Source of the DNA: Cognatishimia maritima
GTDB taxonomy: Bacteria; Pseudomonadota; Alphaproteobacteria; Rhodobacterales; Rhodobacteraceae
Assembly (NCBI RefSeq): GCF_900129685.1
Contig: NZ_FQWM01000007.1
Coordinates: forward strand, 1 to 64,000
Reading direction: 5' to 3'
Length of the DNA: 64,000 bases
This document shows positions 43,654 through 59,878 of the stretch, one piece after another (position 1 is the first letter of the stretch; every line of letters begins with the position of its first letter). The notes beneath the pieces are model-generated. The model made no database searches, was not told the DNA's origin, and worked only from the letters and a program-made list of their open reading frames with translations. The translations under genes and the position numbers were made by a program.

Positions 43654-43748
43654 GGCGTAATCTCGTTGACGATTGTTTACGCGCCGGATTTGATGGCTGC
43701 CGCCACTGGCGGGCAACGCTGCCTATATGAAATTTACAATAGGCAAAA

Positions 43749-43768
43749 ATTTTTACAATTGTAAAAAT
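43749..43768. promoter_or_regulatory. Palindromic operator upstream of the sulfatase (site 1 of 3)
   Basis: ATTTTTACAATTGTAAAAAT is a perfect 20-bp palindrome 50 bases upstream of the sulfatase start. The core TTTTACA-WW-TGTAAAA recurs at 48324-48339 and, with one change, at 54994-55009. A half-site ATTTACAAT lies 19 bases upstream (43732-43740). The SorC-family regulator encoded at 53923 is the likely binder. Confidence 0.75.
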
Positions 43769-43818
43769 CCACATCAGCCGGTACATTACGCCAAACGCCC
43801 CTGACTTCGGAGAATGGC

Positions 43819-45354
43819 ATGAATATCATTCTGGTCCTCGTTGACAGTCTGAACAAGGATTGTCTTAGCACCTATAACCCGAACACAGAGTGCAAGGCGC
43901 CCAATGTTCAGGCGCTTGCTGAGCGGGGCCATGTCTTTGATGATCACTATGTCGGCAGCCTGCCATGCATGCCCGCGCGGCGTGAAATCATGGCGGGGCG
44001 CAAAGAGTTCCTTTGGCGGCCATGGGGCGGGATGGAAGTCTTTGACCCGCGTATGCCCAAGGAAATTTCCAAGACTGGCATGAACACCGCTATGGTCACC
44101 GACCACTACCACTATTGGGAAGAAGAGGCGAACGGCTACATGCAGGGCTTTGGGAACCTGCAACTGGTGCGCGGGCATGAAGTCGACAGCTGGAAGATGC
44201 ACGACCCAAACGCGGACGATCCGCAATGGGTCAAGAACGTGATGAAATACCGCGCGGCGGAACATATCCGGCAGTACGCGGCCAATGTGAAAGACTTCAA
44301 AGGCGAAGAAGACTATTTCGCGCCCAAGGTCTTTCAAGGGGCGATGGATTGGCTGGATGAAAACGCAGGCAAGGGCGACTTTTTCTTGCAGGTCGAATGT
44401 TTCGACGTGCACGAACCCTTCGAGGTGCCCGAACCCTATGCCAGCATGTACACCGATGGCGACAAAAACGATTTTAACATCTGGCCGCCCTATCAAGTCT
44501 ATGCAGACCTAGAGCGTTTTATGGATGAAACCACGCCAGAAGAACTGGCGTTCCTGAAAGCGCAGTACATGGGCAAGGTCACCATGATGGACACTTGGCT
44601 GGGCAAGTTCATGGCCAAGCTCGACGCCATGAACCTCTGGGAAGACACGATGGTTGTCTTTACCACCGACCATGGCCATGACCTTGGCGCGCGCCGTGCT
44701 TTTGGCAAACAATTCCCGCATTACGACAGCCATGCCAATATCCCGATGATCGTCTGGCACCCCGGCAGTCCGGGCAAAGGCAGACGGGTCAAGGGACTGA
44801 CGCAGACCGTAGACCTTTTCGCCACGCTGATCGATGCGGCGGGCGGCGCAATTCCCGCAAGCAATCGCCATTCGAAATCCATCTTGCCAATGATCACCGA
44901 CAACGCCGACAGCCCACATGAGGCGCTGATCTATGGCACCTTTGGGCAAGGGCTGTGCGTGACCGATGGCGACTACACGCTGTTCCGCGCCCCGGTCGAA
45001 GGCAAACCCTTGTTCACCTATTCCACCGCGATCTTTCGGCCCTTGATTGTTGACAACCCGGTGGACGGGCGCGTCGGCAAACCGCCAGAGACACCGGCAG
45101 AGCAGGGGATGTTTGACCCATCGGTTGATCTGCCACTTTGGAAGACACCGATCTCAATTGATCCGCGCACCTATGATTGCTTCCTCTACAATCGCGCCGA
45201 CGATCCCGGACAGGTCCATAACCTTTGGGACAGCGATCCGGCGCAGAAACAGCGTATGTTGCACTTAGCGCGCAAACTGATGGATGCCGAAGGCTATCCG
45301 GCCGAACAACTGGAACGTCTGGGCATGACAGATGCGGATTTGGCGGCGGCCTAG
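43819..45354 (+). CDS. Type I (formylglycine-dependent) sulfatase
   Basis: 511 aa, no signal peptide, so cytoplasmic. The active-site motif is CMPAR at residues 50-54, matching C-x-P-x-R, where the cysteine is converted to formylglycine. Metal-binding positions include Asp9 near the N-terminus (VLVDSLNKD) and the TTDHGHD segment in the middle. It would remove a sulfate ester from an imported organic compound. The converging gene 2 bases away encodes the matching formylglycine-generating enzyme. A palindromic operator upstream links it to the split transketolase, BisC-like and TauABC-like operons. Confidence 0.9.
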   Translation: MNIILVLVDSLNKDCLSTYNPNTECKAPNVQALAERGHVFDDHYVGSLPCMPARREIMAGRKEFLWRPWGGMEVFDPRMPKEISKTGMNTAMVTDHYHYWEEEANGYMQGFGNLQLVRGHEVDSWKMHDPNADDPQWVKNVMKYRAAEHIRQYAANVKDFKGEEDYFAPKVFQGAMDWLDENAGKGDFFLQVECFDVHEPFEVPEPYASMYTDGDKNDFNIWPPYQVYADLERFMDETTPEELAFLKAQYMGKVTMMDTWLGKFMAKLDAMNLWEDTMVVFTTDHGHDLGARRAFGKQFPHYDSHANIPMIVWHPGSPGKGRRVKGLTQTVDLFATLIDAAGGAIPASNRHSKSILPMITDNADSPHEALIYGTFGQGLCVTDGDYTLFRAPVEGKPLFTYSTAIFRPLIVDNPVDGRVGKPPETPAEQGMFDPSVDLPLWKTPISIDPRTYDCFLYNRADDPGQVHNLWDSDPAQKQRMLHLARKLMDAEGYPAEQLERLGMTDADLAAA

Positions 45355-45356
45355 GC

Positions 45357-46211
45357 CTATCGGTCAAATGCCACGCGGAAGCCGCCGTTGGATGTGCCGT
45401 TGTCGGCCTGCCGACCGCTGCGCGCTGCGATCCGGTAGCGCCAGCAGGTTGAGGCATGACACAGGAATGATCCACCCTTAAGGACCCGTTCGTTTTCTTT
45501 CTTGGCGTGCAGGTTCCGCGCCTTGGCCTGCGCGCTTAATGATCGGACCTTGAACAGGTCCTCGCACCACTCCCAGACATTGCCCGAGAGATTGTAAAGC
45601 CCCGCAGCATTGGGCGGAAAGCTCCGGGCGGGCGCTGTACCGTAAAAGCCGTCTGCCTCGGTGTTGTGGTCGGGAAAGTTGCCTTGCCAGATATTGCAAT
45701 GACGGGCGTTTTCGTCGCTTGGTTCGTCCTCGCCCCAAGGATAGCGCATCGGTTCAGGCCCGCCGCGCGCAGCATGTTCCCATTCCGCCTCAGTCGGCAG
45801 GCGGCCACCCAGCCAGGCGGCATAGGCTTTGGCATCATTCCAGGACACGTGCACCACCGGATGGTCTGCCATGTCGCCAAAATCAGACCCCGGCCCGAGT
45901 GGCGTGCGCCATGTGGCTCCGTCCACCGCGTTCCACCAGGGCAGGCCGGGAGGTTGTGGGCCGGTAGCGTCCTGTCTCAGTCCGCGAAACACAAAGGACC
46001 AGCCATAGATCTCGGCGTCGGTGACATGACCCGTTGCATCGCAGAACTGTTGGAAATCAGCGAAGGTGACCGTGGTTGCGCCAATAGCAAACGGTTTTAA
46101 CGTGACCTTGCGCGCCGGGCTTTCCCCATCAGATTTGATCTCTGGTTGATCGGTTCCGATGTGGCTTTTGCCCCCGGCAAAGCTGACAATATCAAATGAA
46201 GGGTCCGGCAT
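45357..46211 (-). CDS. Formylglycine-generating enzyme (FGE/SUMF1 family)
   Basis: 284 aa from the ATG at 46211; the longer frame to 46259 begins with TTG and adds unconserved residues. The catalytic region near the C-terminus reads [21 protein letters not shown], with the two cysteines spaced as in proven FGEs, so this is a real sulfatase activator rather than one of the many Cys-less paralogues. It oxidises the CxPxR cysteine of the sulfatase on the opposite strand. Convergent with it, gap 2 bases; its own promoter must lie in the 102-bp space before the transketolase genes. Confidence 0.9.
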
Positions 46212-46257
46212 ATCGATTGAATGGCAGTGGCGTGATCTATTGTCAAATGCTCCGGAC

Positions 46258-46292
46258 AAATGGAAAGACCGCGCCCAGAACAGAGCGCGGTC
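46258..46292 (-). terminator. Terminator after the split transketolase genes (minus strand)
   Basis: GACCGCGC and GCGCGGTC form a perfect 8-bp stem with a 10-base loop. Read on the minus strand it is followed by TTTCCATTT. It lies 22 bases beyond the transketolase C-subunit stop. Confidence 0.65.
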
Positions 46293-46313
46293 AACCGGGG
46301 AGGTCTCAGATGA

Positions 46314-47318
46314 TCAGAGCGCTTCGGCCTTGACCAGAGAGTGCACGTCTTCGACGCGCGCTGTATCGAGATCGTCTTCTGTGATCCCGAATTCCTGACC
46401 CATCAGGTCCTCGATCCCACGCACCATCGCCGTGGCATCCAACCCGTAGTAGCGCATCAGGTAGGCCCGTGAGCCACCATGCGCGTAGGTGTCTTTCAAC
46501 CCAAGACGCACGAGCCGCTTGCCAACACCGGCGTCGGCCATGGTTTCTGCCACAAGTGAGCCGATGCCGCCTTCGGTCACGTGGTTTTCAAGCGTGACAA
46601 CACCGTGCTTTACCGAAGAGATGTGATCAAGCAACGCTTTGGAATCAAACGGTTTGATTGTGTGCAGGTGCAGGTGGCGGATCGAAAGCCCCGCCTTTTG
46701 CAGCGCCGACCGGGCGCGCATGGCTTCTTCGGTGCAGATGCCGGATGTGACGACCAGAATGTCATCGCCCGACGATAGCTCGCGCATTTCGCCGACCTTG
46801 ATCGGCGTATCAAACAGACGGGGCACGGAGCCGCGAAGAACCCGGCACCAGACCGGACCATCGATGCTATCGGCGGCTTCGCAGATACTTTCCACCTCGG
46901 TCGCGTCGCCCGTTTCCAGAATGGTCATGTTCGGAATTGACCGCATGACCGAGATATCTTCGATCGCTTGGTGGGTCATGCCGCCGGGGGTCGTGACGCC
47001 GGGCAGAAAACCCATCAGCCGCACCTTGCGGCGTGGGTAGGCAATCGAGGCCATCAGCTGATCATAGGGGCGGCGATACATAAAGACGCCGAATGTATGA
47101 ATGAAAGGCCGGAAGCCTGCGAGGCCCAGACCTCCGGCGAAGCTTAGCATGTTCTGTTCTGCCATACCCATCGACAGAAACTGGTCGGGGTGACGATCAC
47201 GAAAGCCGTCTATCTCGCAAGAAGATGTCAGGTCCGCGCTGAGGCAAAGGATGTCCTTGTTGCCTGCGGCGTATTTCTCGAAGGCCGAGGCGTAGGGGCG
47301 GGATACCATTTCAACCAT
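46314..47318 (-). CDS. Transketolase, C-terminal subunit (split enzyme)
   Basis: 334 aa. It corresponds to the pyrimidine-binding and C-terminal domains of transketolase: SMGMAEQNMLSFAGGLGLAG carries the catalytic glutamate, followed by TFGVFMYRRPYDQL and a C-terminal Rossmann-like region (DDILVVTSGICTEEAM). The N-terminal subunit is encoded 11 bases upstream. Split transketolases are used in several specialised sugar pathways, including the two-subunit enzyme of the sulfo-transketolase route for sulfoquinovose; no other gene of that route is obvious here. Confidence 0.88.
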   Translation of the reverse strand: MVEMVSRPYASAFEKYAAGNKDILCLSADLTSSCEIDGFRDRHPDQFLSMGMAEQNMLSFAGGLGLAGFRPFIHTFGVFMYRRPYDQLMASIAYPRRKVRLMGFLPGVTTPGGMTHQAIEDISVMRSIPNMTILETGDATEVESICEAADSIDGPVWCRVLRGSVPRLFDTPIKVGEMRELSSGDDILVVTSGICTEEAMRARSALQKAGLSIRHLHLHTIKPFDSKALLDHISSVKHGVVTLENHVTEGGIGSLVAETMADAGVGKRLVRLGLKDTYAHGGSRAYLMRYYGLDATAMVRGIEDLMGQEFGITEDDLDTARVEDVHSLVKAEAL

Positions 47319-47329
47319 GTCTCGGCTCC

Positions 47330-48256
47330 TTAATGTGCGTAATCGATTGGATCGACGCCAAGGTCTTTGGCAATCGACGTATTCATGCGGGCGCGTTCAT
47401 CTTCGGATTTGAAACGCACGTAATGCAGGCGGGGGAACCGTTCCTCGAGGATCGACATGCTGTGGAACGGGTTGGTCCGTGCGAGGATGATCAGGGGCTT
47501 GCCGTCGTGCTTTTCCTTGACCGCATCACGCATGGCGTTGATGTCGTGGCCGTCGATCTCGATACAAGCGGCACCAAAGTTTTCGAACTTGGTCTTGATG
47601 TCGCCAACTTCCATGACGCTGTCCATCGCGCCGTCACATTGCTGGTCGTTCACATCCATGATGGCATATAGGTTGTCGATGCCGTGGAAGGCGGCGGCTT
47701 GAACAGCCTCCCAGGTCTGGCCTTCCTGCACTTCGCCGTCTGACATAAAGACCCATGTGCGTCCCGGTTCGCCACGCAGTTTGCGGCCATAGGCCAGTCC
47801 TGCACCAGTCGAAAGGCCAATGCCAAGCGTGCCGTTGTGCACCTCCATGCCGGGGCTGTGTTCTGCGCCGATCATTTCGACGCTGGAGCCATCCTTGTTG
47901 AACATCTCCAGCCCTTCAGGGGCCATGCGGCCAACTTCGATCAGCGTGGCATAGGCCACAAGTGCGTAATGGGCCGGGGCGATGAACAGGCGGTCAAATT
48001 CTGGGGCAGCGGGGCCATTATAGCCTGCGCCCGTGTGGTAGTCTGGGTTGCTCGGCGATGGGACGCCCGCAAAATCCTTGGGGATCATAGGAAGGGTCGG
48101 CGCGCCGAGGTTGAGCTCTTCATTATAAAGCCAAGCCAGTTGTTCGCCCGCGGAACACGCCTGCGAGAGATACCCGCCGTTGTTCCGCATGGAATGTTCA
48201 AAGACACGGCGGCGGATGCCGAGGGCGACCTCTTCAGTCGTCTTTTCGTTGCGCAT
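47330..48256 (-). CDS. Transketolase, N-terminal subunit (split enzyme)
   Basis: 308 aa. The thiamine-diphosphate pyrophosphate-binding domain is visible: HNGTLGIGLSTGAGLAYG, then SDGEVQEGQTWEAVQAAAFH and DVNDQQCDG, where SDGE replaces the usual GDGE. It starts 68 bases from the shared palindrome at 48324-48339 and is divergent from the BisC-like operon. It forms one enzyme with the C-terminal subunit that follows. Confidence 0.88.
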   Translation of the reverse strand: MRNEKTTEEVALGIRRRVFEHSMRNNGGYLSQACSAGEQLAWLYNEELNLGAPTLPMIPKDFAGVPSPSNPDYHTGAGYNGPAAPEFDRLFIAPAHYALVAYATLIEVGRMAPEGLEMFNKDGSSVEMIGAEHSPGMEVHNGTLGIGLSTGAGLAYGRKLRGEPGRTWVFMSDGEVQEGQTWEAVQAAAFHGIDNLYAIMDVNDQQCDGAMDSVMEVGDIKTKFENFGAACIEIDGHDINAMRDAVKEKHDGKPLIILARTNPFHSMSILEERFPRLHYVRFKSEDERARMNTSIAKDLGVDPIDYAH

Positions 48257-48323
48257 TGCGCGACCTCCTATTCAAAAAACGAGGATTTCGATATTGTCCA
48301 TTTGGGTAACATATGACATACTA

Positions 48324-48339
48324 TTTTACAAATGTAAAA
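48324..48339. promoter_or_regulatory. Palindromic operator between transketolase and BisC-like operons (site 2 of 3)
   Basis: TTTTACAAATGTAAAA has perfect 7-bp arms around an AA centre. It ends 12 bases before the likely start codon of the molybdoenzyme at 48352, so it overlaps the expected transcription start; a TTGTCC / CATACT promoter pair upstream is possible but weak. The site can serve both divergent operons. Confidence 0.75.
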
Positions 48340-48351
48340 GTGAGTTGTCGA

Positions 48352-50700
48352 ATGACATCGAATAAATCACCTGTCAAATCGCCGAAAACAGTGGCGCATT
48401 GGGGTGGCTATGAAATCAAAGACAGCCCTGTTGGCACCGTGCTGGTGCCAAACGCGGCGGATGACTCGCCCTCGGTCATCGGGCGAGGTTGGGTGTCTGC
48501 GATGCAAGACAAAAAGGCGCGAATCCTGCGCCCTGCGGTCCGCTGGGGCTGGCTTCGGGGTGATGGCGGCGCTGCGCGCAACGATGATGCCTATGTCGAG
48601 GTCCCTTGGGACGAAGCGCTGGACATCACGGCATCAGAGCTTGCGCGTGTGCGCGATCTTTATGGCAATCAGGCGATCTTTGGCGGCTCTTATGGCTGGG
48701 CAAGCGCGGGACGCTTTCATCACTGCCATTCGCAACTGCGGCGGTTTCTGAACCTTGCCGGAGGGTATGTTGGCCAGAAAGACACCTATTCCCATGCGGC
48801 GGCTGAGGTGCTGTTTCCCTTTATCACCGGCCTGTCCAACAAGCAGATCGAAGAAGGCGCTACCAGTTGGCCGCTGATCGCGGACCATTGCACCTTGATG
48901 CTGGCATTCGGAGGGGTCTCCGGGCGCACGGCGCAGATTGCCTCTGGCGGGACCTGGGCGCATGAAGTGGACAGTTGGGTTGAGCGCGCTGCGCAAAACG
49001 GAATGCAGACCGTTAATATTTCGCCGCTGAAAAGCGACTATTTGCCCGGTGCAAACCCGATGTGGCTATCGATTCGGCCCGGCACCGATGTAGCCCTGAT
49101 GATGGCATTGACCTATGAGATCATGGCGGCCGGAGAACATGACCAAGCTTTTCTGGATCGCTACACCACGGGCAGCGCGGAGTATCAACGCTATCTAAAG
49201 GGCGATCAGGACGGGGTCGCCAAAACCGCCGACTGGGCCGCGCAAATATGTGACATCGCCGCCGATGATATCAGGGCGCTGGCCCGTCGCCTGCCCAAAG
49301 AACGGGTCATGATCTCGGTCGCATGGGGTGTGCAGCGTGCCGATCATGGCGAGCAACCCATCTGGGCGGCATTGGCGCTGGCGTGTTTCCTTGGCCAGAT
49401 TGGCCTGCCGGGACAGGGCTTTGGCTTTGGCTACGGCTCGACCGCGCCGCCGGGGCGCCCAAAGCGATTTATCAGTTGGCCATCGGTGCCACAGGGGCGC
49501 AACCCTGTTTCAGATCAGATCCCGGTTTCACGTGTGGCCGACATGCTGCTGTCACCCGGGGCGGCCTATTCATATGACGGTGGGCAATGGATCTATCCCG
49601 ATATCAAGCTGATCTACTGGGGTGGTGGAAACCCGTTTCACCATCACCAAGACCTGAATCGACTAGAAAAGGCGTGGCAGCTGCCCGAAACCGTGATCGT
49701 TCAGGATCACAGCTGGACCGCCACGGCGCGGCGCGCGGATATCGTGCTGCCCGCAACTTCGGCGCTTGAACGGGAAGATCTGTTTCTCAACAGGCGTGAT
49801 CCCAATCTGATCCTGATGCAGAAGGTGATGGAGCCAATGGGCGATGCGCGCAGTGATCATGAAATTTTCAAAGGCCTGGCAGCGCGACTTGGCATAGAAG
49901 AGGCCTTTACCGAAGGCCGTGACGAAGCGGGCTGGAAGGCTTGGCTTTGGGCAGGCTGCCAAGAGGTCGCCAAGGAGGCGGGATTTGATCTTCCCGATTA
50001 TGAAACGTTCCGCGAGATAGGCCATTTGACCATTCCGGAAGAGGACCAGACACGCATTCTGTTTTCTGATTTCATTGCCGATCCCAAGGCCAACGCGTTG
50101 CCCACACCGAGCGGCAAGATAGAGTTGTATTGCCAGAGGATTGCCGATCTTTCTCTGACTGATTGTCCGGGTCATCCGGTTTGGCTCCCCCCGGCAGAGT
50201 GGTTGGGTGCCGCAAACACGGGACAATTGCATCTGGTGTCGAACCAACCGACAGCGCGGCTGCACAGCCAGTTGGACAACGGGGCTGAAAGCCAGTCCCG
50301 GAAGGTGCAGGGACGGGAGGTCTGTACCTTGCATCCTGAAACCGCAGCGCAATTTGGGCTGCAAACCGGCGACGTTGCGCGATTGTTCAACGCACGGGGG
50401 AGCTGCCTCGCTGCGGTGCACTGTGATGCCGGTATGCGACCTGACGTGATTGTTTTGCCAACCGGTGCGTGGCTGGATTTGCAGGATACGCCCCATGGGC
50501 GGATCGATGTGCACGGCAACCCAAATGTTCTGACCATCGACAAGGGCACCTCGGGGCTGGCGCAGGGCAATATCGCGCATACCACTTTGGTCAATGTTGA
50601 AAAATGGACGGACCCGCTGCCGCCCATCCGGGTGTTTGAACCGCCGCGCATGGTCGCGCGCGACGAACATCCTTCAGATCCACAAGGAGACGCCGCATGA
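48352..50700 (+). CDS. Molybdopterin oxidoreductase of the DMSO reductase family (BisC-like, cytoplasmic)
   Basis: 782 aa from the ATG at 48352; a start at 48313 would place the operator inside the gene. No Tat signal and no [4Fe-4S] cysteine motif are present, which is the type III (BisC/TorA/DorA) pattern. The segment GGSYGWASAGRFHH carries the serine expected to bind molybdenum. BisC reduces biotin and methionine sulfoxides in the cytoplasm; this homologue may act on an S-oxide or N-oxide or in the opposite, oxidising direction. It is first of a kinase-dehydrogenase-aldolase-regulator operon, an unusual setting for such an enzyme. Confidence 0.85.
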   Translation: MTSNKSPVKSPKTVAHWGGYEIKDSPVGTVLVPNAADDSPSVIGRGWVSAMQDKKARILRPAVRWGWLRGDGGAARNDDAYVEVPWDEALDITASELARVRDLYGNQAIFGGSYGWASAGRFHHCHSQLRRFLNLAGGYVGQKDTYSHAAAEVLFPFITGLSNKQIEEGATSWPLIADHCTLMLAFGGVSGRTAQIASGGTWAHEVDSWVERAAQNGMQTVNISPLKSDYLPGANPMWLSIRPGTDVALMMALTYEIMAAGEHDQAFLDRYTTGSAEYQRYLKGDQDGVAKTADWAAQICDIAADDIRALARRLPKERVMISVAWGVQRADHGEQPIWAALALACFLGQIGLPGQGFGFGYGSTAPPGRPKRFISWPSVPQGRNPVSDQIPVSRVADMLLSPGAAYSYDGGQWIYPDIKLIYWGGGNPFHHHQDLNRLEKAWQLPETVIVQDHSWTATARRADIVLPATSALEREDLFLNRRDPNLILMQKVMEPMGDARSDHEIFKGLAARLGIEEAFTEGRDEAGWKAWLWAGCQEVAKEAGFDLPDYETFREIGHLTIPEEDQTRILFSDFIADPKANALPTPSGKIELYCQRIADLSLTDCPGHPVWLPPAEWLGAANTGQLHLVSNQPTARLHSQLDNGAESQSRKVQGREVCTLHPETAAQFGLQTGDVARLFNARGSCLAAVHCDAGMRPDVIVLPTGAWLDLQDTPHGRIDVHGNPNVLTIDKGTSGLAQGNIAHTTLVNVEKWTDPLPPIRVFEPPRMVARDEHPSDPQGDAA

Positions 50701-52205
50701 CGCCACTTTGGCTGGGAATCGATGTGGGCACGACTGCCATCAAGGCTGCGGTCTATCAAAGTGATGGCACGCAGATCAGTCATGGCGAGTGCCCCAGCCG
50801 CGTGTCAACGCCGCGCCCCGGACATTCCGAACAGAATATGTCTGATGTCTGGGACGGGGTCTGTACCGCGCTGAAGAAAGCCGTTGCATCGGTAGACGTG
50901 TCGCAGATTCAAAGCCTTGGTGTGGCCGCACAGGGCGATGGCCTCTGGGCGCTTGACGCAGACGGGGCGCCGGTCGGTCCGGCGCTCTTGTGGAATGACA
51001 CCCGCGCGGCGCGTGTCCTGTCTGATCTTGACGATGCTGCCTTGGGTACGATTGCAAAAGCCTGCCGCACGGCGCTTTGGCCAGGCACGCTGGGGCCGCT
51101 GTATCGCTGGATGCGCGATCGTGAACCAGAGCGCGCCGCACGTGTGTCCCATGTCATGCATTGCGCGGGTTGGGTCGGCTATTGCCTAACCGGCAAAATG
51201 GCGGTCGATTTCTCGGATGCGTCGATCCCGTTTCTTGACCTCGGCACCGGGCATTATTCAGACGCCGCCCTTGCGGCGCTGGGCGTGCCAGAATTGCATT
51301 CGGCACTTTTGCCGCCGCAATCAGCGGAAAGCCAATTGGGAACACTCAGTGCTAAAGCAGCGGCGGCCACCGGGTTGCCAGAGGGGTTGCCGGTTTCGGT
51401 TGGGACATTGGACCTGTCGGCTATGATTGTCGGCATGGGCATGGATCAGCCCGGCGACACGATGATGATCCTTGGCACGACAGCGGTTGTAAACATACTG
51501 CGCGACGCCATTGATCCGAGCGAAACGCCTGTTGGGGCCTCGGCCTACCACGCGAACGGGCGCACGCTAACGCGCATTCTTGCCCCCACAACCGGGGCCG
51601 CGGCCTTTGACTGGTTCTGCGCCTTGCATCCGCAAACGCTGGGCGGAGAAACACCTGCCGAAATCGCCGGGAAGCTGAACGCGCTGGCGCAAGAGGTGCC
51701 TGCCGGGGCCAATGGCGTGACCTTCCTGCCGCATCTGAACGGCGAGCGCGCGCCTTTTGTCGCGCCCGAAGCTACAGGGGCTTTCTTTGGCCTGCGCAGC
51801 ACCAGCACCAAGGCTGATATGGGTCGTGCCGTGATGGAAGGTGCCGCGTTTAGCTTGCGCGATTGTTACCTGTCTGAATGTGGCACTTTGCCGGATACAC
51901 CGATCCGCCTGACCGGGGGAGGGGCAAAAAACGCGCTTTGGTGCCAGATCATCGCGGATGTCATGCAAACCCGAATTGAGGTCAGCGCGGCCTCTGATCA
52001 CGGGCTATGGGGCGCGGCGTGCCTAGGTGCGGCGGCTAACGGAAAAGGCGTCGCCAGCTCTCTGGCCGCGCGCGAAGAAACCAGCCTGATCTATGATCCT
52101 GATCCGGCAGATAGGCCGGCATATGACGCGGCTTTCGCCCGTTACAAATCCCTCTCACACGCGGCGCAGGCGCTCTGGGCCGAAACTTCCAAGGAAACCT
52201 CATGA
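50697..52205 (+). CDS. FGGY-family carbohydrate kinase
   Basis: 502 aa. The N-terminal phosphate-binding loop is GIDVGTTAIKAAVY, and the second ATPase-fold signature is in LTGGGAKNALWCQIIADVMQ with a catalytic-Asp-type GTLDLSAM segment in between. The family phosphorylates xylulose, ribulose, glycerol, erythritol and similar compounds; this one cannot be placed more closely. It overlaps both neighbours by ATGA, so it is translationally coupled to the molybdoenzyme and the dehydrogenase. Confidence 0.87.
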   Translation: MTPLWLGIDVGTTAIKAAVYQSDGTQISHGECPSRVSTPRPGHSEQNMSDVWDGVCTALKKAVASVDVSQIQSLGVAAQGDGLWALDADGAPVGPALLWNDTRAARVLSDLDDAALGTIAKACRTALWPGTLGPLYRWMRDREPERAARVSHVMHCAGWVGYCLTGKMAVDFSDASIPFLDLGTGHYSDAALAALGVPELHSALLPPQSAESQLGTLSAKAAAATGLPEGLPVSVGTLDLSAMIVGMGMDQPGDTMMILGTTAVVNILRDAIDPSETPVGASAYHANGRTLTRILAPTTGAAAFDWFCALHPQTLGGETPAEIAGKLNALAQEVPAGANGVTFLPHLNGERAPFVAPEATGAFFGLRSTSTKADMGRAVMEGAAFSLRDCYLSECGTLPDTPIRLTGGGAKNALWCQIIADVMQTRIEVSAASDHGLWGAACLGAAANGKGVASSLAAREETSLIYDPDPADRPAYDAAFARYKSLSHAAQALWAETSKETS

Positions 52206-53263
52206 CCAAGATGATGAAAGCAGCCGTGTATCACGCGCTGGATGATATCCGCCTCGAAGACCGGCCTGTGCCGGACATTGGGCCAGATGAAATTCTGCTC
52301 AAGACCTTGGCCTGTGGCCTTTGTGGCGGCGAAACCATGGCCTGGTACAAAAAGTCCGACCCCAAAGTTCTGGGCCATGAGCCGATTGGTGAGGTTGTCG
52401 AGGTTGGCGCAGATGTGACCGACTATAAGATTGGCGACCGGCTGTTCATCAATCACCACGTGGGACGTGTCGACAGCCATCTGTCGCGGCGTGGGCATTT
52501 CACCCGCGACCCGTTTTATGCGTCGATGAAGCTCGATCCGGGTGGGGTCTGTGAATATTATCGCGTGACCGCGCAGCATTTGCGGATGGATGCGCATAAA
52601 GTGCCTGACAATGTCTCTACCGAGGCGGCTGTCACCATTGAACCATGGTCCTGTGTGCTATCAGGCCTGAAGGTTTGTAACATCCAACCAGGCGATACCG
52701 TTGCTGTCGTTGGGGCCGGGTTCATGGGGCAGGGGTTTGTGCACCTCGCGCCGCTGTTTGGGGCTGGCAAGGTGATTGCGCTGGATTTCTCGAACTGGCG
52801 GCTTGAGAAGGCCAAGTTCTTTGGGGCGACCCACACGATCAACCCAAAAACCGAAGACGCGGTCGAGGCACTGCGGGCGATAAATAACGGGCGCTTGGCG
52901 GATACAGTCATTGTGATCGCACCGTTCCCGCAGGCTTGGGCGGATGCTGAAAAGCTGGTCGAGGTCGGTGGCACATTGCATCTGGGAGCGCCGCTGGCAC
53001 CCGGCACGGATTGGGTGCGCGAAGGCAGTCGGGCGTACTTTGATCAGATCACCATCACCTCGCGCTACAGTTCCGATCACACGGACACCTATAGTTACAT
53101 TCGCCTGCTTGAAGCGGGGCGGATCAAGGCGGATGAGGCGATCTCGCACCGGTTTGAGATCGAAGACAGCGCTGAGGCGTTTGAGATGCTGCGACTGGCA
53201 GAGAAGTCTCTGAAAATTGTGGTCTATCCGCATGGTATTCCGGAGGACAAAAAAGATGCTTAA
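52202..53263 (+). CDS. Zinc-dependent medium-chain dehydrogenase, without structural zinc site
   Basis: 353 aa. The catalytic zinc ligands are in ACGLCGGET and LGHEPIGEV (Cys and His-Glu), and the NAD-binding motif is VGAGFMGQG at about residue 178. The lobe that normally holds a structural zinc with four cysteines is replaced by a His-Arg-rich stretch (NHHVGRVDSHLSRRGHFTR) with no cysteine. The closest general type is sorbitol or threonine dehydrogenase. It would oxidise a polyol or sugar-alcohol intermediate before or after the kinase. Confidence 0.83.
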   Translation: MTKMMKAAVYHALDDIRLEDRPVPDIGPDEILLKTLACGLCGGETMAWYKKSDPKVLGHEPIGEVVEVGADVTDYKIGDRLFINHHVGRVDSHLSRRGHFTRDPFYASMKLDPGGVCEYYRVTAQHLRMDAHKVPDNVSTEAAVTIEPWSCVLSGLKVCNIQPGDTVAVVGAGFMGQGFVHLAPLFGAGKVIALDFSNWRLEKAKFFGATHTINPKTEDAVEALRAINNGRLADTVIVIAPFPQAWADAEKLVEVGGTLHLGAPLAPGTDWVREGSRAYFDQITITSRYSSDHTDTYSYIRLLEAGRIKADEAISHRFEIEDSAEAFEMLRLAEKSLKIVVYPHGIPEDKKDA

Positions 53264-53921
53264 TGCACTGAAAGAAGAGGTTTGCGAGCAAAACCATGAG
53301 TTGCCAGCAAACGGGCTGGTCGTGGGGTCAGGCGGCAATGTGTCTGGACGCGATCCTGAAACCGGGTTGATTGTCATCAAGCCTTCGGGCGTGAAATTTA
53401 AGAAACTGACGCCTGACACGATGGTGGTCGTGGATATCGACGGCAATGTCATTGAGGGCGACAAGAAACCGTCGGTTGATACCGGGGTGCATCTTTATAT
53501 CTACAAGAACCGCCCGGATGTCTTTGGCATCACACATACGCATTCGCCTTATGCAACGTCCTTCGCGGCGCGCGGCGAGCGTATTCCGGCGGTGCTGACA
53601 CCAATCACCCATATTCTTGGCCGGGACGTGCCGTGCTCGCGCTACGCCACGCCGGGCGAGGTTGATACCGGGCAGGCCGTGATCGAGGCGGCAGATGGCG
53701 GATATGCGGCGCTGGTTCAGGCGCATGGGGTCTTTACGATGGGCAAATCCGCGACCGAGGCGACATCCATTGCAATGTACCTCGAAGAGGCGGCGATGAC
53801 GACACATTTGGCGATGTGCCGTGGTCCAGTCGAGGAACTGCCCCAAGAAGAGATCGACCGTTGCTTTCAGTGGTTCCGCAAGAACTATGGTCAAGGGGGG
53901 CAGAAGAAAGTAAACGCATAG
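53256..53921 (+). CDS. Class II aldolase / epimerase family protein (FucA/AraD type)
   Basis: 221 aa from the ATG at 53256, overlapping the dehydrogenase by 8 bases. The phosphate-binding loop is SGGNVSGR, zinc-binding histidines are in THTHSPYATSF and in QAHGVFTMG, and an acidic residue lies between. Members cleave L-fuculose- or ribulose-1-phosphates or epimerise L-ribulose 5-phosphate. In this operon it would cleave the phosphorylated ketose made by the kinase into dihydroxyacetone phosphate or glycolaldehyde-type products, which transketolase could use. Confidence 0.86.
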   Translation: MLNALKEEVCEQNHELPANGLVVGSGGNVSGRDPETGLIVIKPSGVKFKKLTPDTMVVVDIDGNVIEGDKKPSVDTGVHLYIYKNRPDVFGITHTHSPYATSFAARGERIPAVLTPITHILGRDVPCSRYATPGEVDTGQAVIEAADGGYAALVQAHGVFTMGKSATEATSIAMYLEEAAMTTHLAMCRGPVEELPQEEIDRCFQWFRKNYGQGGQKKVNA

Positions 53922-53922
53922 T

Positions 53923-54885
53923 ATGGCTCGTAACGATCAAAACCGACAAAAAGACAAAGATGCGCAACTCGCCAATGTCGCCTTGCTGTACTACGGCGAG
54001 GGGCTGACACAAAGCGAGATCGCCAAACGGATCGGCGTGTCGCGCCCAACCGTCGTCAACATGTTGAAAGACTGCCGGGATAGGGGGATCGTTGAGATCA
54101 GGGTCGGTGGCGACGTCTTGTCTGGGTCGAACTTGTCTCGTCAACTGTGTGAAAGATTTGGTCTGCAGGATGCCTATGTTGCGCAGGTGAGCGGCAGCAA
54201 GTCACGGGCTGACATGCTGACCCAAGTCGCAAGAGTTGGTGCAATGGCCGTTGGCGATGTTGTACGGTCGGGCGACCTCGTTGGTGTGGCGTGGGGTGAG
54301 ACCATAAAGGCGGTGTCCCTTGCGATGCCGCAGTGCGAGTTTCAGGACGTCACGGTCTGTCAGATGATCGGTTCGATGGTGTCTGACCGGGTGCCTACGT
54401 CCGAAGATTGTTCCATCCGCATCGCAAATTCGCTGAACGGAGAATGCTACACGCTGCACGCGCCAGCGGTCTTATCTACGGCAGAGCTGGCCCATCAGTT
54501 GCGCCAAGAACCAACGATTGCGGCGCAACTGAAGCGTTTGCAGAACTTGGATGTAGCTGTGTTTTCCGTCGGCAATACGGAAATGGACACACATCTTGTG
54601 GCTGCCGGAATCGCGGATGAAATGGAACTGCTGGCAGCGCTGCGCAGTGGGGCTAAGGGCATCGTGTGTGGACGCTATGTCAGTTTTGCTGGAAGGGGCA
54701 TGGATTTGCCACCCGAAGACCGGTTGATCGCGATAGAGTTGGAACATCTGCGTCAGGCGCACCGAAAACTGCTGATCGCAACGGGCGCCGACCGCGTAGA
54801 CGCCGTGCGGGCCGCATTGGCTGGCGATCTTGTGACCCATCTCTGCGTCGACGATGCCATGGCCGAGGCCCTTCTGGGACAATAG
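53923..54885 (+). CDS. SorC-family sugar-responsive transcriptional regulator
   Basis: 320 aa from the ATG 1 base after the aldolase stop. An N-terminal helix-turn-helix (LTQSEIAKRIGVSRPTVVNM, about residues 28-47) is followed by a SorC/DeoR-type effector domain (residues 60-320) with a ribose-5-phosphate-isomerase-like fold (VGVAWGETIKAV, later GIVCGRY). Such regulators bind phosphorylated sugars. It is the last gene of the operon and is the natural candidate for the palindromes at 43749, 48324 and 54994, as SorC/DeoR proteins use AT-rich ACA-N2-TGT dyads. Confidence 0.87.
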   Translation: MARNDQNRQKDKDAQLANVALLYYGEGLTQSEIAKRIGVSRPTVVNMLKDCRDRGIVEIRVGGDVLSGSNLSRQLCERFGLQDAYVAQVSGSKSRADMLTQVARVGAMAVGDVVRSGDLVGVAWGETIKAVSLAMPQCEFQDVTVCQMIGSMVSDRVPTSEDCSIRIANSLNGECYTLHAPAVLSTAELAHQLRQEPTIAAQLKRLQNLDVAVFSVGNTEMDTHLVAAGIADEMELLAALRSGAKGIVCGRYVSFAGRGMDLPPEDRLIAIELEHLRQAHRKLLIATGADRVDAVRAALAGDLVTHLCVDDAMAEALLGQ

Positions 54886-54993
54886 CTGCCAAACACCGGT
54901 AAATTGTGTCGCGTGGCTCCTTTGGGCCATCGCATCTCTGCGCCATTGGCACGTGCGACCGCTTGCTGTTTGAACCTTTCTTATGACAAAACA

Positions 54994-55009
54994 TTTGACA
55001 AATGTAAAA
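54994..55009. promoter_or_regulatory. Palindromic operator upstream of the TauABC-like operon (site 3 of 3)
   Basis: TTTGACAAATGTAAAA differs from site 2 at one base only and keeps the 12 bases GACAAATGTAAAA-type core in register. It lies 75 bases before the binding-protein start and 108 bases after the SorC gene stop. Confidence 0.7.
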
Positions 55010-55083: not shown

Positions 55084-56118
55084 ATGTCGAATTCCAAGGT
55101 AAGTTACATCTCGCGCCGTGGCGTGTTGAAAGGTGGCGTCGCGGCTGGTGCTGCGTTGGCAGCACCGACGTTTTTTGTGGGCAAAGCCCACGCCGCCACA
55201 GAGAAGCTGAAAATCGGGATTATTCCGGCCTACTCCTTCGGGATTTACTGGCTGATACAGGATCAGGGCTTTGCGCCCGGCGTTGAAATGGAGTTCAGCG
55301 TGTTCCCATCCGGACCACCGGCAATCGAAGCCATGGTGGGCGGCTCGGTGGATGCAATCACTGTTGGATCAGTGCCACCGCTTGCGGCGATGGCGCGCAA
55401 GGTGGCCGACTTCCGTGAGATTTCGATCTGCGGCGATGCATCGGGCCTGTTTACCATCGTTGGTCAGCCGGGGCTCGAAAAGCTCGAAGATCTGGAAGGC
55501 AAACGGATCGCCGTGACCTCTGGGTCGAACTTCGACTTCTTCCTTGGTGTCGCGCTTGAGCAGGCCGGTCTTTCCGACATGCCACACAAGCGTATCAATA
55601 TGGAGCCGATTGATGCACAGGCCGCTCTAATTGCGGGCGCTGTGGATGCCACGGTTCCATTGGCCACTTCCCGTCAGTTGATCTTTGACAAACTCCCTGG
55701 CGCAAGCATGCTGGCGGAAGGGGCCGCAATGCCGATTGATGCCCGCCCGTCGATCATGGACGTCTTCATGACGACGCAGCAGACCATGGACGCCAAGGAA
55801 GAAGCCATGACTGAAATCGTTGCAGCCTTCCATCGCGATGGCGTTGGCATGTTGCGCGAAGATAATGACGCCGTGGTGCAGCGCATGATCGCGTGGCAAG
55901 AAAGCGTCGGCCGAGCCGGTGTCACCGCAGGTGAGGTCGCGCCACTGTTGAATGGCTACTTCTATTTCGACACGGACGAGATCAAAGATGTCTACGCTAG
56001 GGGTGTTCTGAACAAGGCTTTGCAAGTGCAGTCAGAGTTCCTTGTCGCCAATGATCGTATCCCTGCGGTGCCGGATCTGGACGCGCTGGTCAGCGATCAA
56101 ATCGTAAGCAAACTCTAA
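55084..56118 (+). CDS. NMT1/TauA-type ABC transporter substrate-binding protein
   Basis: 344 aa after GGGAGG. A Tat signal is present (SRRGVLK near residues 11-17, then an Ala-rich stretch to about residue 37). The mature protein starts KLKIGIIPAYSFGIYWLIQD and contains GGSVDAITVGSVPPLAAM and LEGKRIAVTSGSNFDFFL, typical of the NitT/TauT family (taurine, alkanesulfonate, nitrate, thiamine precursor binding). The ligand may be a small organosulfur compound, given the sulfatase regulon. First of three genes. Confidence 0.85.
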   Translation: MSNSKVSYISRRGVLKGGVAAGAALAAPTFFVGKAHAATEKLKIGIIPAYSFGIYWLIQDQGFAPGVEMEFSVFPSGPPAIEAMVGGSVDAITVGSVPPLAAMARKVADFREISICGDASGLFTIVGQPGLEKLEDLEGKRIAVTSGSNFDFFLGVALEQAGLSDMPHKRINMEPIDAQAALIAGAVDATVPLATSRQLIFDKLPGASMLAEGAAMPIDARPSIMDVFMTTQQTMDAKEEAMTEIVAAFHRDGVGMLREDNDAVVQRMIAWQESVGRAGVTAGEVAPLLNGYFYFDTDEIKDVYARGVLNKALQVQSEFLVANDRIPAVPDLDALVSDQIVSKL

Positions 56119-56119
56119 A

Positions 56120-56896
56120 ATGAATGTGTTGGACACATTGACCTCAAGACGCCTTTGGTTAGGCGTCTTGTCGGTCGCGGTCTGTTTTGCCGCCTATATC
56201 TGGGTGACAAACAGGCCAGACAATAACCCGGCGCTGTTGCCGCCGATTTCAGATATCGTCAAATCCTTCTTCGTAAATATTGAATCCGGCAGCCTTCATA
56301 CCGCGCTCGGCGCGAGCCTGTTCCGTATTTTCATGGGGTTCTTCATCGGCACGACAATGGCGCTGATCGTTGGTTGTCTTGTCGGGTGGTATAAGACGAT
56401 TGAATTCCTTGTCGATCCGCTGATCGAAGCGCTGCGTCCGATCCCGCCGCTGGCCTATATTCCGATCATTATCATCTGGTTCGGGATTGAAGAATTCAGT
56501 CGGGTTTTGATCATATCAATCGCCTGTTTCATGGTTTGCGTGGTCAATGTGATCGCGGGGATGAAAAACGTTCCGCAGGTCTATGTCGATGCGGCCTCAA
56601 CCATGGGTGCAAGCCGCTTCCAAGTGTTCCGCACCGTGGCAGTGCCTGCGGCGACGCCTTTCATTATCACAGGGTATCGCATTGCGCTGGGCGCAGCTTG
56701 GACGACGTTGGTTGCTTCTGAATTGCTGGCAGCACAGAACGGCCTTGGATTCCTTCTGCAAGAGGGCCGGCGGTATTTCCTGACCGATCAGGTTATGATG
56801 GTGATCGTGATCATTGGGGCCTGTGCCTTCCTGATGGACCGGGCATTCCGCCGCATCCAAGCCTATCTCATGCAATGGTCGGAGGCGCGTGAATAA
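56120..56896 (+). CDS. NitT/TauT-type ABC transporter permease
   Basis: 258 aa with about six membrane segments and an EAA loop (YVDAASTMGASRFQVFRTVAVP). It starts 1 base after the binding-protein stop and overlaps the ATPase by 1 base (TAATG). It is the SsuC/TauC type of permease. Confidence 0.9.
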   Translation: MNVLDTLTSRRLWLGVLSVAVCFAAYIWVTNRPDNNPALLPPISDIVKSFFVNIESGSLHTALGASLFRIFMGFFIGTTMALIVGCLVGWYKTIEFLVDPLIEALRPIPPLAYIPIIIIWFGIEEFSRVLIISIACFMVCVVNVIAGMKNVPQVYVDAASTMGASRFQVFRTVAVPAATPFIITGYRIALGAAWTTLVASELLAAQNGLGFLLQEGRRYFLTDQVMMVIVIIGACAFLMDRAFRRIQAYLMQWSEARE

Positions 56897-57651
56897 TGCC
56901 AGAGATCAAGACAAACAACCTGACCCATACCTTTGGCAAAGGTGGTGAAAACGCTCTGACGGTGCTTGAAGATATCGACCTCACGTTTGAGTCCGGCAGT
57001 TTCAACTCCATCATCGGAACCTCTGGGTGCGGGAAGTCGACCCTGCTGAAGATGATGGCGGGGCTGTTTGACCCATCGGACGGCGCGATGACGCTGGATG
57101 GCACCGTCATTCACGGTACGGATCGCCGTCGTGGTATGGTTTTTCAGCAAGACGCGGTGTTTCCATGGATGACCGTGGCAAAGAACATCTCTTACGGACC
57201 GCGTCTGCGTGGGGCCTCTAAGGCGCAACAAGCAGAGATCGAAGCCAAGTGGACCGAAATGGTTGGCTTGAAAGGGTTCGAAGATCGCTGGCCGAGGGAG
57301 TTGTCAGGCGGGATGCGGAAACGTGTCGACATCGGGCGCGTGTATGCCAACGATCCTGACGTCCTTTTGATGGATGAACCGTTTGGGGCATTGGATGCGC
57401 AGACCAAAGAGCGCATGCAATCTGATCTTTTGCAGACGTGGAACCAGACGAAAAAAACCGTGATCTTCGTGACCCACGACATCGAAGAAGCGATCTTTCT
57501 GTCGGATAAGATTGTTGTTCTGTCGTCGCGGCCGGGCCGGGTGCATCACATTGAAGAGGTGAGCCTGCCTCGTCCACGCACAGACGACATGCGCCTGACC
57601 GAAGAGTTCCTGGAAATCAAGCGACGTCTTTGGGCGATGTTGGATCACTAG
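56896..57651 (+). CDS. NitT/TauT-type ABC transporter ATP-binding protein
   Basis: 251 aa. Walker A is GTSGCGKST, the signature LSGGMRKR, Walker B LLMDEPFGALD and H-loop VTHDIEEAI. The short length without a TOBE domain is usual for TauB/SsuB. Last gene of the operon; a terminator follows after 29 bases. Confidence 0.92.
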   Translation: MPEIKTNNLTHTFGKGGENALTVLEDIDLTFESGSFNSIIGTSGCGKSTLLKMMAGLFDPSDGAMTLDGTVIHGTDRRRGMVFQQDAVFPWMTVAKNISYGPRLRGASKAQQAEIEAKWTEMVGLKGFEDRWPRELSGGMRKRVDIGRVYANDPDVLLMDEPFGALDAQTKERMQSDLLQTWNQTKKTVIFVTHDIEEAIFLSDKIVVLSSRPGRVHHIEEVSLPRPRTDDMRLTEEFLEIKRRLWAMLDH

Positions 57652-57680: not shown

Positions 57681-57705
57681 AAAGGCGCGGTTTCGCGCCT
57701 TTTTT
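57681..57705. terminator. Rho-independent terminator between TauABC-like operon and aldose epimerase
   Basis: The stem AAAGGCGCG / CGCGCCTTT with a 4-base loop is followed by a run of T. The A run on the other side means it can also end the convergent epimerase message. Confidence 0.85.
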
Positions 57706-58691
57706 CATGCGTCTTCGAGCTGTAGAACCTCCAGCCTCAGAACCTGCCGATACGGCGCGTCGGGCGTCGCCATCACCGAGGGGAATGCGGCAATATTGAC
57801 CGCATTGGGATGGCCCTGTGGCTCGACACACAGTCCGGCGCCCCGGCCATAGGTCTGTCCGTTCAGGCCGCCGGGGACGCTGTCCAGCCCATGGGCCGTA
57901 TAGATTTGCGCGCCCAATTGGTCAGAAAACACCCGCAGGCCCAAACCATTCGGCGCGCGCATTTCTGCCACGGTAGGTAGGTCGTCAGCTTCTAGCGCGT
58001 TGGCGTCAAAAACAAAGTGTCCGTCTAAGCCGGTCTCTTTAAACGCAGCCATACTTTGGCCTGCGCGAAAATCCTCAATGCTGCCGGTGGTATCGACGAT
58101 ATTGCCCGTTGAGACGCCGATGTCGCTTTGCTCTAGCACCTGATGGCTTGGCATTTTCAACCTGTAATCCCAGATATCTGCCGTGCCGCCGAAGTTATAA
58201 TAGTTGTGCTGCGCAAGGCTGATCGGGGTGGGGCGGTCAACGGTGGCGCTCATGTCATAGGCCAGGCTTTTCTCGGTCAAGGTCACGACCACTTTGACGT
58301 CGACACAGCCCGGAAAGCCGCCTTCGCCGTCTTCAGAGCGATACGTCAGTTCTGCGCGATCCTCGGCGGTTTTGCTGAGGGACCAATAAACACTGCCCAG
58401 CCCGTTTGGCCCGCCGTGCAAGGTGGTTGCGCCTTCGTTTGTCGCAAGCTTGGCAATGGTTCCATCTGGCAGCGCGAACCGCCCGCCACCGATGCGATTT
58501 GAGACGCGGCCAACAATGGCACCGAAATAGTAGGGCGAGCGTGGATAGTCGTTCAGGTCCTGATAGCCGAGGATCATGGGGGTCGCGGTGCCGTCAACGT
58601 CTATGCGCCAGTCCGCAGTAATGGCACCGTAGTTGATCAGTGTCACATGTGCTCCGTCGCAGCTTAGGGTCACAGAGGTCAGTTCGGTCAC
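57705..58691 (-). CDS. Aldose 1-epimerase (GalM family)
   Basis: 328 aa from the GTG at 58691, preceded by AAGGA; an ATG at 58754 would add 21 residues without conservation. Conserved mutarotase features are GRVSNRIGGGRF near residue 65, TLHGGPNGL near 95 with the catalytic-type His, and AQHNYYNFGG near 165. It interconverts anomers of a free sugar in the cytoplasm. It is convergent with the TauABC-like operon. Confidence 0.87.
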   Translation of the reverse strand: MTELTSVTLSCDGAHVTLINYGAITADWRIDVDGTATPMILGYQDLNDYPRSPYYFGAIVGRVSNRIGGGRFALPDGTIAKLATNEGATTLHGGPNGLGSVYWSLSKTAEDRAELTYRSEDGEGGFPGCVDVKVVVTLTEKSLAYDMSATVDRPTPISLAQHNYYNFGGTADIWDYRLKMPSHQVLEQSDIGVSTGNIVDTTGSIEDFRAGQSMAAFKETGLDGHFVFDANALEADDLPTVAEMRAPNGLGLRVFSDQLGAQIYTAHGLDSVPGGLNGQTYGRGAGLCVEPQGHPNAVNIAAFPSVMATPDAPYRQVLRLEVLQLEDA

Positions 58692-58830
58692 ATTGATATC
58701 CTTTTGGAAGGCGGCAGGAGGGCTTGCGCGGGCGATGGGGGCGGACCACCACATTACCCCTCGTAGCCCAAAATGGCGGGGCAGAGCAATTCAGCGCACG
58801 TGCCAAAATTGCTGGGCTCGTTCCCGTTAT

Positions 58831-59748: not shown

Positions 59749-59763
59749 GGGTTTGAATGCCTT

Positions 59764-59785
59764 TTATGCATCGAAAATTGCATAA
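59764..59785. promoter_or_regulatory. LysR-type operator between the regulator and the aldehyde dehydrogenase
   Basis: TTATGCA-N8-TGCATAA is a perfect 7-bp interrupted dyad, with an extra TTATGC half-site at 59788-59793. It lies 16 bases from the LysR start and about 94 bases from the dehydrogenase start, the normal layout for an autoregulating LysR activator. Confidence 0.65.
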
Positions 59786-59878
59786 GTTATGCCTTTTTGT
59801 CCAGTGTCGGCGCGTTTAGTCTGAAACCAATGCCCATGCAACGCTATGCCGAGCGTTGCCCTAGCCTAGGAGCCCTCA

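Follow-up and report, generated by a model that had tools for sequence, protein, structure and literature searches.

The SorC-family repressors DeoR and CggR of Bacillus subtilis, as described in the available parts of PMC11229326, combine a sugar-binding domain with an N-terminal helix-turn-helix (HTH) domain, bind two-part operators as tetramers, and control sugar-phosphate genes. A gene for a protein of this family, referred to below as SorC, is found in the likely marine bacterium Cognatishimia maritima (Rhodobacteraceae) within positions 1 to 64,000 of contig NZ_FQWM01000007.1, a stretch of 64,000 nucleotides that was analyzed as a whole and is called the window here. It belongs to a cluster of 12 genes that encode a sulfatase, a formylglycine-generating enzyme (FGE), two transketolase chains, a molybdoenzyme, a kinase, a dehydrogenase, an AraD-like protein, SorC itself, and three importer components. 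The best-supported reading of the cluster is a single SorC regulon that would extend over four transcription units. The predicted system resembles those of DeoR and CggR in the domain composition of the regulator, the two-part operators, and the control of sugar-phosphate genes, but differs in the operator sequence, in the use of three operators for four divergent units, and in gene content.

Other described systems bear on the enzymes. MtnK, MtnA, and a RuBisCO-like protein are characteristic of the methylthioadenosine (MTA)-isoprenoid shunt of Rhodospirillum and Rhodopseudomonas (available parts of PMC5893883 and PMC6302742) and also of a group of clusters related to the one in the window, referred to here as type B. 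This likeness makes 1-methylthioxylulose 5-phosphate a likely kind of intermediate. Unlike the shunt, type B clusters have a split transketolase as a neighboring gene, and the route predicted for the window would use desulfation, oxidation, a kinase, and an epimerase; MtnA and the RuBisCO-like protein, present in types B and B′ (see below), are not among the window cluster genes. The dihydroxyacetone phosphate (DHAP) shunt (mtnK-mtnA-ald2; available parts of PMC10986504) has in common with the predicted route a protein of the class II aldolase superfamily and 5-substituted pentulose phosphates, but the window protein has Asp in place of Glu, and MtnK and MtnA are missing from its cluster. Like the split transketolase of Carboxydothermus hydrogenoformans (6yaj/6yak), the closest solved relative of both chains, the window transketolase consists of two chains, but its GHP and THxG..GEDG motifs are replaced. 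The sulfo-transketolase and apiose/apulose pathways also pair a kinase with a split transketolase in the catabolism of sugar derivatives; to our knowledge, none of them includes a sulfatase, a molybdoenzyme, or an AraD-type epimerase.

Clusters of the window type (type A) were found in ten places, namely in the window, in P. seriniphilus and M. algicola, and in genomes G257, G201, G151, G303, G250, G207, and G109 (G-numbers are genome labels and L-numbers are locus labels); several of them end at a contig edge. Type B clusters, found in the same family and in Rhizobiales, encode MtnK, MtnA, the RuBisCO-like protein, the transketolase, SorC, and mostly an aldolase that is often fused to a short-chain dehydrogenase/reductase (SDR). 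They are represented by L077, L078, L080, L057, L058, L065-L070, and L072-L074 and look like a variant of methylthioribose salvage. Type B′, found in Ponticoccus and G002, encodes a purine nucleoside phosphorylase, a 5′-deoxyadenosine-deaminase-like protein, MtnA, the molybdoenzyme, the transketolase, the RuBisCO-like protein, and a nucleoside-type importer; its loci (L076:5809-18110 on Ponticoccus alexandrii plasmid p-SCP4, and L061 in G002) include a 336-amino-acid protein of no confident family. In type C, the sulfatase and importer genes lie beside a gene for a GntR-type regulator (G328, L083:4408-11947; G014, L093:4754-10008, partial). The G014 sulfatase shows two stops in one search match, yet there is an open frame of 547 amino acids there.

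Paired palindromes at the cluster promoters

The pattern TTTKACAAWTGTAAAA has three exact matches in the window, at positions 43751-43766, 48324-48339, and 54994-55009. The original prediction, made from the letters of the window alone, had proposed from these palindromes that about 12 genes form one SorC regulon, and its description of them is accurate: the first is part of a perfect 20-bp palindrome (43749-43768), and the second and third have 15 of 16 bases in common. At up to three mismatches, the window contains 7 matches (both strands counted) against an expectation of 0.85, a number reached in 0 of 100 shuffles. The form had been seen nowhere else in the window, and this restriction extends to the whole 3.28-Mb genome, in which the three window palindromes are the only places with 0 or 1 mismatch and four further places have 2 mismatches (the reversed control pattern has 1 match).

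Each palindrome has, exactly 19 bp upstream, a weaker match to a site matrix that was trained on 7 sites (3 from the window, 2 from G257, and 2 from P. seriniphilus). These companions score 13.4, 4.5, and 2.6 bits at operators 1, 2, and 3, respectively, the last two being weak matches, and among 72 offsets the position at −19 ranked 1st, 2nd, and 1st. The spacing was then evaluated by taking the single best matrix hit per locus, irrespective of its position, and searching for companions at offsets of 10 to 45 bp on either side. In 23 of 31 related loci, the best companion was 19 or 20 bp away, as against 0 of 93 shuffled copies. The 31 loci were drawn from 35 by leaving out the window and three overlapping loci and include several from one genome (G303, G207) as well as loci used for matrix training (L038, L040); without the training loci and with one locus per genome, the count is 20 of 27. 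An earlier test with 46 hand-picked sites from the top hits gave the same peak at 19 to 20 bp, and at the four places in the C. maritima genome with 2 mismatches the best two companions were never at 19 or 20 bp. Judged from this spacing, each palindrome is predicted to be one half of an operator whose second half lies 19 bp upstream, an arrangement that on the level of the DNA sites, as distinct from the tetramer, is the two-part operator of the SorC family. The second halves are an addition to the original picture.

Similar sites recur at equivalent promoters in other genera that carry an orthologous sorC gene. Operator 2 has counterparts at the equivalent position in L038 and L040, as does operator 3, which also has a weaker one in L039. 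The promoter of the orthologous sulfatase gene in G257 carries TTTTACAATTGGTAAT (L081:2676); this promoter and its counterparts in M. algicola and G201 score 14.3 to 18.8 bits. On the 420-kb plasmid of P. seriniphilus, the sole two matches with up to 2 mismatches are two orthologous promoters (reversed control, 2), and on the M. algicola plasmid 2 of 3 such matches are at cluster promoters (reversed control, 0). Across the loci, most top hits fall within divergent promoters: in type A these are tktN/bisC, tauA, sulfatase, and fggy/rbsB, in type B mtnK/rbsA, aldolase/sorC, and tktN, and in type B′ bmp/PNP. The promoter of the type C sulfatase and importer genes, with the GntR gene beside it, has no good match in either G328 or G014 (3.6 and 5.2 bits), the top hits of these loci being elsewhere. 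On Ponticoccus plasmid NZ_CP047170.1, three GTTTACANNTGTAAAC-like palindromes are found within 2.3 kb (324411-326711), far from the cluster; they are perhaps the operator set of another regulator.

In types A, B, and B′, the regulator gene repeatedly found together with the sites is sorC (in G002, just outside L061). Its window product combines a C-terminal PF04198 domain with matches to several HTH models within residues 15-63, and its best solved relatives are DeoR (8r7y, 124 bits), SorC (2w48, 104 bits), and also LsrR. In a phylogenetic tree, the SorC proteins of type A (9 rows) group into a single clade with support of 100/97, and their recognition helix is much like those of types B and B′ and of DeoR. 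From these comparisons, the palindromes are very probably operators of this SorC; the case is somewhat weakened in that neither G109, with a good site upstream of the importer gene, nor G029, with a weak site at tktN, has a SorC relative at E 1e-20. Several further observations weigh against the assignment. In 8 of the 31 loci (L043, L063, L064, L069, L070, L071, L075, and L077) the top hit has no companion at 19 or 20 bp, and in 5 of these 8 the top hit is outside the expected promoter. The P. seriniphilus sulfatase gene, which comes after the transketolase genes on the same strand, has no operator before it (−5.0 bits). TTTKACANNTGTMAAA at up to one mismatch was found at 28 places across 25 genomes. 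Three of them are in the window; of the 25 outside it, spread over 24 genomes, only 5 are inside these clusters (two in G257 and one each in G250, G109, and G319). The remaining 20 compare with 19 for the reversed control in those 24 genomes, so that isolated palindromes not belonging to the clusters are at background level. The proposed regulon of 12 genes nevertheless gains support from the confinement of close matches to the cluster in the C. maritima genome, the use of the same promoters in other genera, and the pairs at 19 to 20 bp.

Gene products and the atypical split transketolase

The gene list of the original prediction stands (Table 1), with three corrections: an FGE gene comes after the transketolase genes, a zinc alcohol dehydrogenase gene has to be added, and the "aldolase" looks closer to AraD than to FucA. 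The FGE, the epimerase-type residue of the AraD-like protein, and the link to MtnA and RuBisCO-like proteins are beyond what had been observed earlier. The statement that the genes are separated by terminators could not be established, as terminator-like matches in the region number 18 versus 15.2 in shuffles; one such stem, at 46267-46292 between the transketolase and FGE genes, belongs to this class of matches that are not above chance. Promoter-like matches (6 versus 7.1 in shuffles) are not enriched either.

Table 1. Predicted operators and genes of the C. maritima cluster (window coordinates)
Feature	Coordinates	Strand	Supporting match or motif
Predicted operator 1: weaker match 43732-43747 and palindrome 43751-43766, 19 bp apart, upstream of the sulfatase gene	43732..43766	.	
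Type I sulfatase	43819..45354	+	PF00884, 1.9e-34; CMPAR (CxPxR) motif
Formylglycine-generating enzyme (FGE)	45357..46259	-	6s07 FGE, 282 bits; both cysteines of SFLCHxSxC
Split transketolase, C-terminal subunit	46314..47318	-	Atypical FLPG..TPGG.THQ motif
Split transketolase, N-terminal subunit	47330..48256	-	Atypical VEMIGAEHSPGME motif
Predicted operator 2: weak companion 48305-48320 and palindrome 48324-48339, between the divergent transketolase and molybdoenzyme operons	48305..48339	.	
DMSO-reductase/BisC-type molybdoenzyme, probable S-oxide reductase	48352..50700	+	TIGR00509, 834 bits; 1eu1, 569 bits
FGGY kinase, xylulokinase-like	50697..52205	+	TIGR01312, 294 bits (under the cut-off of 380)
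Zinc alcohol/polyol dehydrogenase	52202..53263	+	PF08240, PF00107
Class II aldolase/AraD family protein, probable sugar-phosphate 4-epimerase	53256..53921	+	AraD-type Asp
SorC-family regulator, final gene of the bisC operon	53923..54885	+	PF04198, 3.6e-54
Predicted operator 3: weak companion 54975-54990 (chiefly right half) and palindrome 54994-55009, upstream of the importer operon	54975..55009	.	
NitT/TauT-type substrate-binding protein	55084..56118	+	Tat-signal match slightly below its cut-off
TauC-like permease	56120..56896	+	
TauB-like ATPase	56896..57651	+	

The split transketolase belongs to a subfamily whose N-terminal subunit has relatives at E 1e-90 in 33 of 394 genomes of the family. 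When compared with 6yaj/6yak, all 28 members examined have the GHP region replaced by VEMIGAEHSPGME, with small variations, and the TH..GEDG region by FLPG..TPGG (FLPGLSTPGG in Vibrio), so that neither canonical active-site motif is found; THQ retains its HQ, and RG its Arg. We take the lost residues to be those that contact the C1 hydroxyl and the phosphate/stereo region of the donor. To judge from these motifs, the subfamily has a remodeled active site that is common to the clusters with MtnA and RuBisCO-like proteins. In a transketolase tree of 28 rows, types A, B, and B′ interleave, and the well-supported branches force at least two changes; the Vibrio row forms a very long branch, and L062, whose context is not known, was counted as type A.

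In type B, the transketolase gene adjoins those for MtnA and the RuBisCO-like protein. The RuBisCO-like protein of L077, the sole one tested, has as its best solved relative 3qfw (230 bits), presumably RLP1 of R. palustris, which, according to the available parts of PMC5893883, catalyzes 1,3-isomerization of 5-(methylthio)ribulose-1-phosphate. In R. rubrum, the main product of that isomerization is 1-methylthioxylulose 5-phosphate (PMC6302742, available parts). Because of this reaction reported for the neighbor, a 1-substituted xylulose 5-phosphate appears to be the likeliest common substrate of the transketolase subfamily. In L079 (a Vibrio nigripulchritudo plasmid) and L092 (G158), a gene for an FGGY kinase is next to genes for a RuBisCO-like protein and a transketolase of this subfamily.

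In the sulfatase, the domain starts at residue 2, so the enzyme is probably cytoplasmic; its SLPCMPAR sequence carries the CxPxR motif of type I sulfatases, which is kept in 5 of 5 relatives aligned. The FGE, which has both active-site cysteines, gives the strongest PF03781 match of the genome (251 bits; the others score 88, 78, and 35 bits) and is expected to activate the cluster sulfatase. The molybdoenzyme, which probably starts at 48352 rather than at 48313, scores below the TIGR00509 (BisC subfamily) cut-off of 1017.55 bits and, when aligned with 1eu1, retains SYGW and the Ser of YSxAAA found in S-oxide reductases of the BisC/DMSO reductase type. We assume the usual roles for the SYGW motif and for this Ser, the latter as the molybdenum ligand. 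Downstream of the cluster, positions 57705-61372 harbor a galM-like gene and genes for a LysR-type regulator (GcvA-like, 247/288 bits; choline-sulfate type, 199/325) and an L-piperidine-6-carboxylate dehydrogenase (817 bits, exceeding the cut-off of 730).

P. seriniphilus and M. algicola have the same set of genes, although no FGE gene was found with these two clusters in the 31 kb read. The sulfatase and the NitT/TauT-type importer go together in 5 of 5 type A clusters (in G201 the importer is more distant); the G257 sulfatase, 90% identical, is encoded at the opposite end of the same 44-kb contig. Five genomes, G303, G250, G207 (83% complete), G151, and G109, have an RbsABC (ribose-type) importer, and 4 of these 5 lack such a sulfatase at E 1e-90. 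Among the 394 family genomes, sulfatase relatives at E 1e-90 were found in 6, C. maritima included, and SorC relatives at E 1e-55 in 47, of which 7 are type A. The only other genome of the genus has no match to SorC (E 1e-55) or to the transketolase or sulfatase (E 1e-90), and two type A copies are on Rhodobacterales plasmids; the type A unit is patchy and probably mobile.

A proposed route and its alternatives

The best overall explanation, to which we would give an even chance, combines the SorC regulon with the degradation of a sulfated 5-substituted pentitol. A SorC tetramer would bind the three bipartite operators, each consisting of two 16-bp sites 19 bp apart, and repress the four transcription units until released by a sugar phosphate made by the pathway. 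The 12 genes would form one catabolic unit, in which the NitT/TauT-type importer takes up the anionic sulfate ester, the cytoplasmic sulfatase, activated by its own FGE, strips the sulfate, and the zinc dehydrogenase oxidizes the desulfated polyol to a ketose. If the starting compound is a ribose-derived pentitol whose two ends carry a substituent X and sulfate, respectively, oxidation next to X would yield 1-X-L-ribulose, which the FGGY kinase would phosphorylate and the AraD-type protein would epimerize at C4 to 1-X-D-xylulose 5-phosphate (X being a non-hydroxyl group at C1). The atypical split transketolase would then cleave this compound into glyceraldehyde 3-phosphate and an X-bearing two-carbon unit, and the molybdoenzyme would reduce an oxide form of X. 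The sequences themselves show the operator sites with their recurrence and spacing, the genes present, their catalytic motifs, and the transketolase subfamily common to the cluster types; we infer SorC as the binder, the order of the steps, the intermediate, and X, for which our best guess is S-methyl or its S-oxide. That types A and B′ both encode the molybdoenzyme is suggestive of an S-oxide, and 2-methylsulfinylethanol was found in E. coli fed methylthioadenosine in air (PMC10986504, available parts), which indicates that S-oxides of such fragments do arise.

The route also meets with difficulties. A sulfated 5-substituted pentitol is not reported in the literature searched (mostly openly accessible papers), which likewise gave nothing relevant on dimethylsulfonio- or dimethylarsinoyl-ribitol and split transketolases and, by title, nothing on this system for sulfatase, transketolase, Roseobacter, and SorC. 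Ribitol sulfates are known among algal arsenosugars, although they did not come up in this search. The catalytic Asp120 of AraD aligns with His in type A, which makes the epimerase activity uncertain. No type B operon was seen to include the molybdoenzyme, whose relatives at 52 to 59% identity occupy varied contexts; nine loci with such relatives (L084-L091 and L094), whose genomes, apart from G158, lack the transketolase at E 1e-90, have no common theme among the neighbors, as listed with a gene filter that overlooked the molybdoenzyme itself in L087 and L091. For these reasons, the link of the molybdoenzyme to X is weak, and it does not identify X. Finally, G109 carries both the sulfatase and the RbsABC importer.

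If X is simply a hydroxyl, the cluster would convert an ordinary sulfated sugar alcohol to plain xylulose 5-phosphate, the transketolase would be an extra one, and the molybdoenzyme would serve general oxide repair. The xylulokinase-like kinase and the AraD-like protein suit plain pentulose chemistry, and members of the molybdoenzyme family are common (109 of 394 genomes at E 1e-200). Still, we find this unlikely, since a dedicated transketolase would be superfluous and the motif replacements in 28 of 28 members examined are those of the clusters with MtnA and RuBisCO-like proteins.

A route akin to the DHAP shunt, in which a class II aldolase splits 5-X-ribulose 1-phosphate into DHAP and X-acetaldehyde and the transketolase takes a side product, is also a doubtful proposition, slightly more so. 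It has in its favor the precedent of the shunt (PMC10986504, available parts) and the fact that the family of the AraD-like protein includes aldolases. Moreover, the type C cluster of G328, which has the same sulfatase and importer and appears to represent an alternative route for the same substrate, additionally encodes a FucA-type aldolase, a PfkB kinase, and an SDR. The window protein itself, however, has the AraD proteins 1k0w and 1jdi as its closest solved relatives (its score with PRK06557, 246.7 bits, is slightly below the cut-off of 251), and in 10 of 10 type A proteins Asp occupies the position of FucA Glu73, where Asp is the AraD residue and Glu is found in FucA and in the aligned type B and C aldolases. 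The roles assigned here to these residues are the ones usual for AraD and FucA. With Asp at the aldolase Glu position, a plain aldolase role for this protein was downgraded.

That the palindromes belong to some other coordinating regulator, with SorC controlling its own operon alone or something else, is improbable. This reading would accommodate the background level of single palindromes elsewhere and the two genomes with sites but no SorC relative, but no regulator gene other than sorC accompanies the sites repeatedly in three cluster types; the recognition helices of these SorC proteins are alike, and the type C promoter lacks the sites. Sulfonate (taurine-like) catabolism, which the membership of the importer in the SsuA/TauA family might suggest, is rejected as very improbable, since the importer scores below the taurine and sulfonate cut-offs (for the taurine importer, TauA 68.8/304.25, TauC 185.2/342, and TauB 227.1/357 bits), no desulfonating enzyme was recognized in the gene set, and its sulfur-handling enzyme is a CxPxR sulfatase.

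For the sulfated 5-substituted pentitol route, a narrower version can be put forward as a speculative and, taken as a whole, rather unlikely proposal. In this version, C. maritima and its relatives would break down the sulfate ester of a 5-(methylthio or methylsulfinyl)-5-deoxy-pentitol that stems from a 5-thio-substituted ribose, and the degradation would join methylthioadenosine salvage at 1-methylthio-D-xylulose 5-phosphate. There, the transketolase, as a new subfamily, would replace the methylsulfurylase, expel methanethiol from the two-carbon carbanion, and yield glyceraldehyde 3-phosphate and an acetyl unit in a phosphoketolase-like reaction, with one ancestral bipartite SorC operator serving both branches.

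Two predictions open to test come out of the analysis, a regulon and an enzyme, the latter a split transketolase with a remodeled donor site that would be common to an apparent methylthioribose salvage and a sulfatase-led route. The importer swap, with the NitT/TauT type accompanying the sulfatase and RbsABC occurring mostly without it, indicates which protein to test for the substrate. If the substrate of the transketolase is a 1-substituted xylulose 5-phosphate, these bacteria would have another outlet for sulfur-sugar salvage, one that, if true, could tie sulfate esters, perhaps algal, to the release of volatile sulfur.

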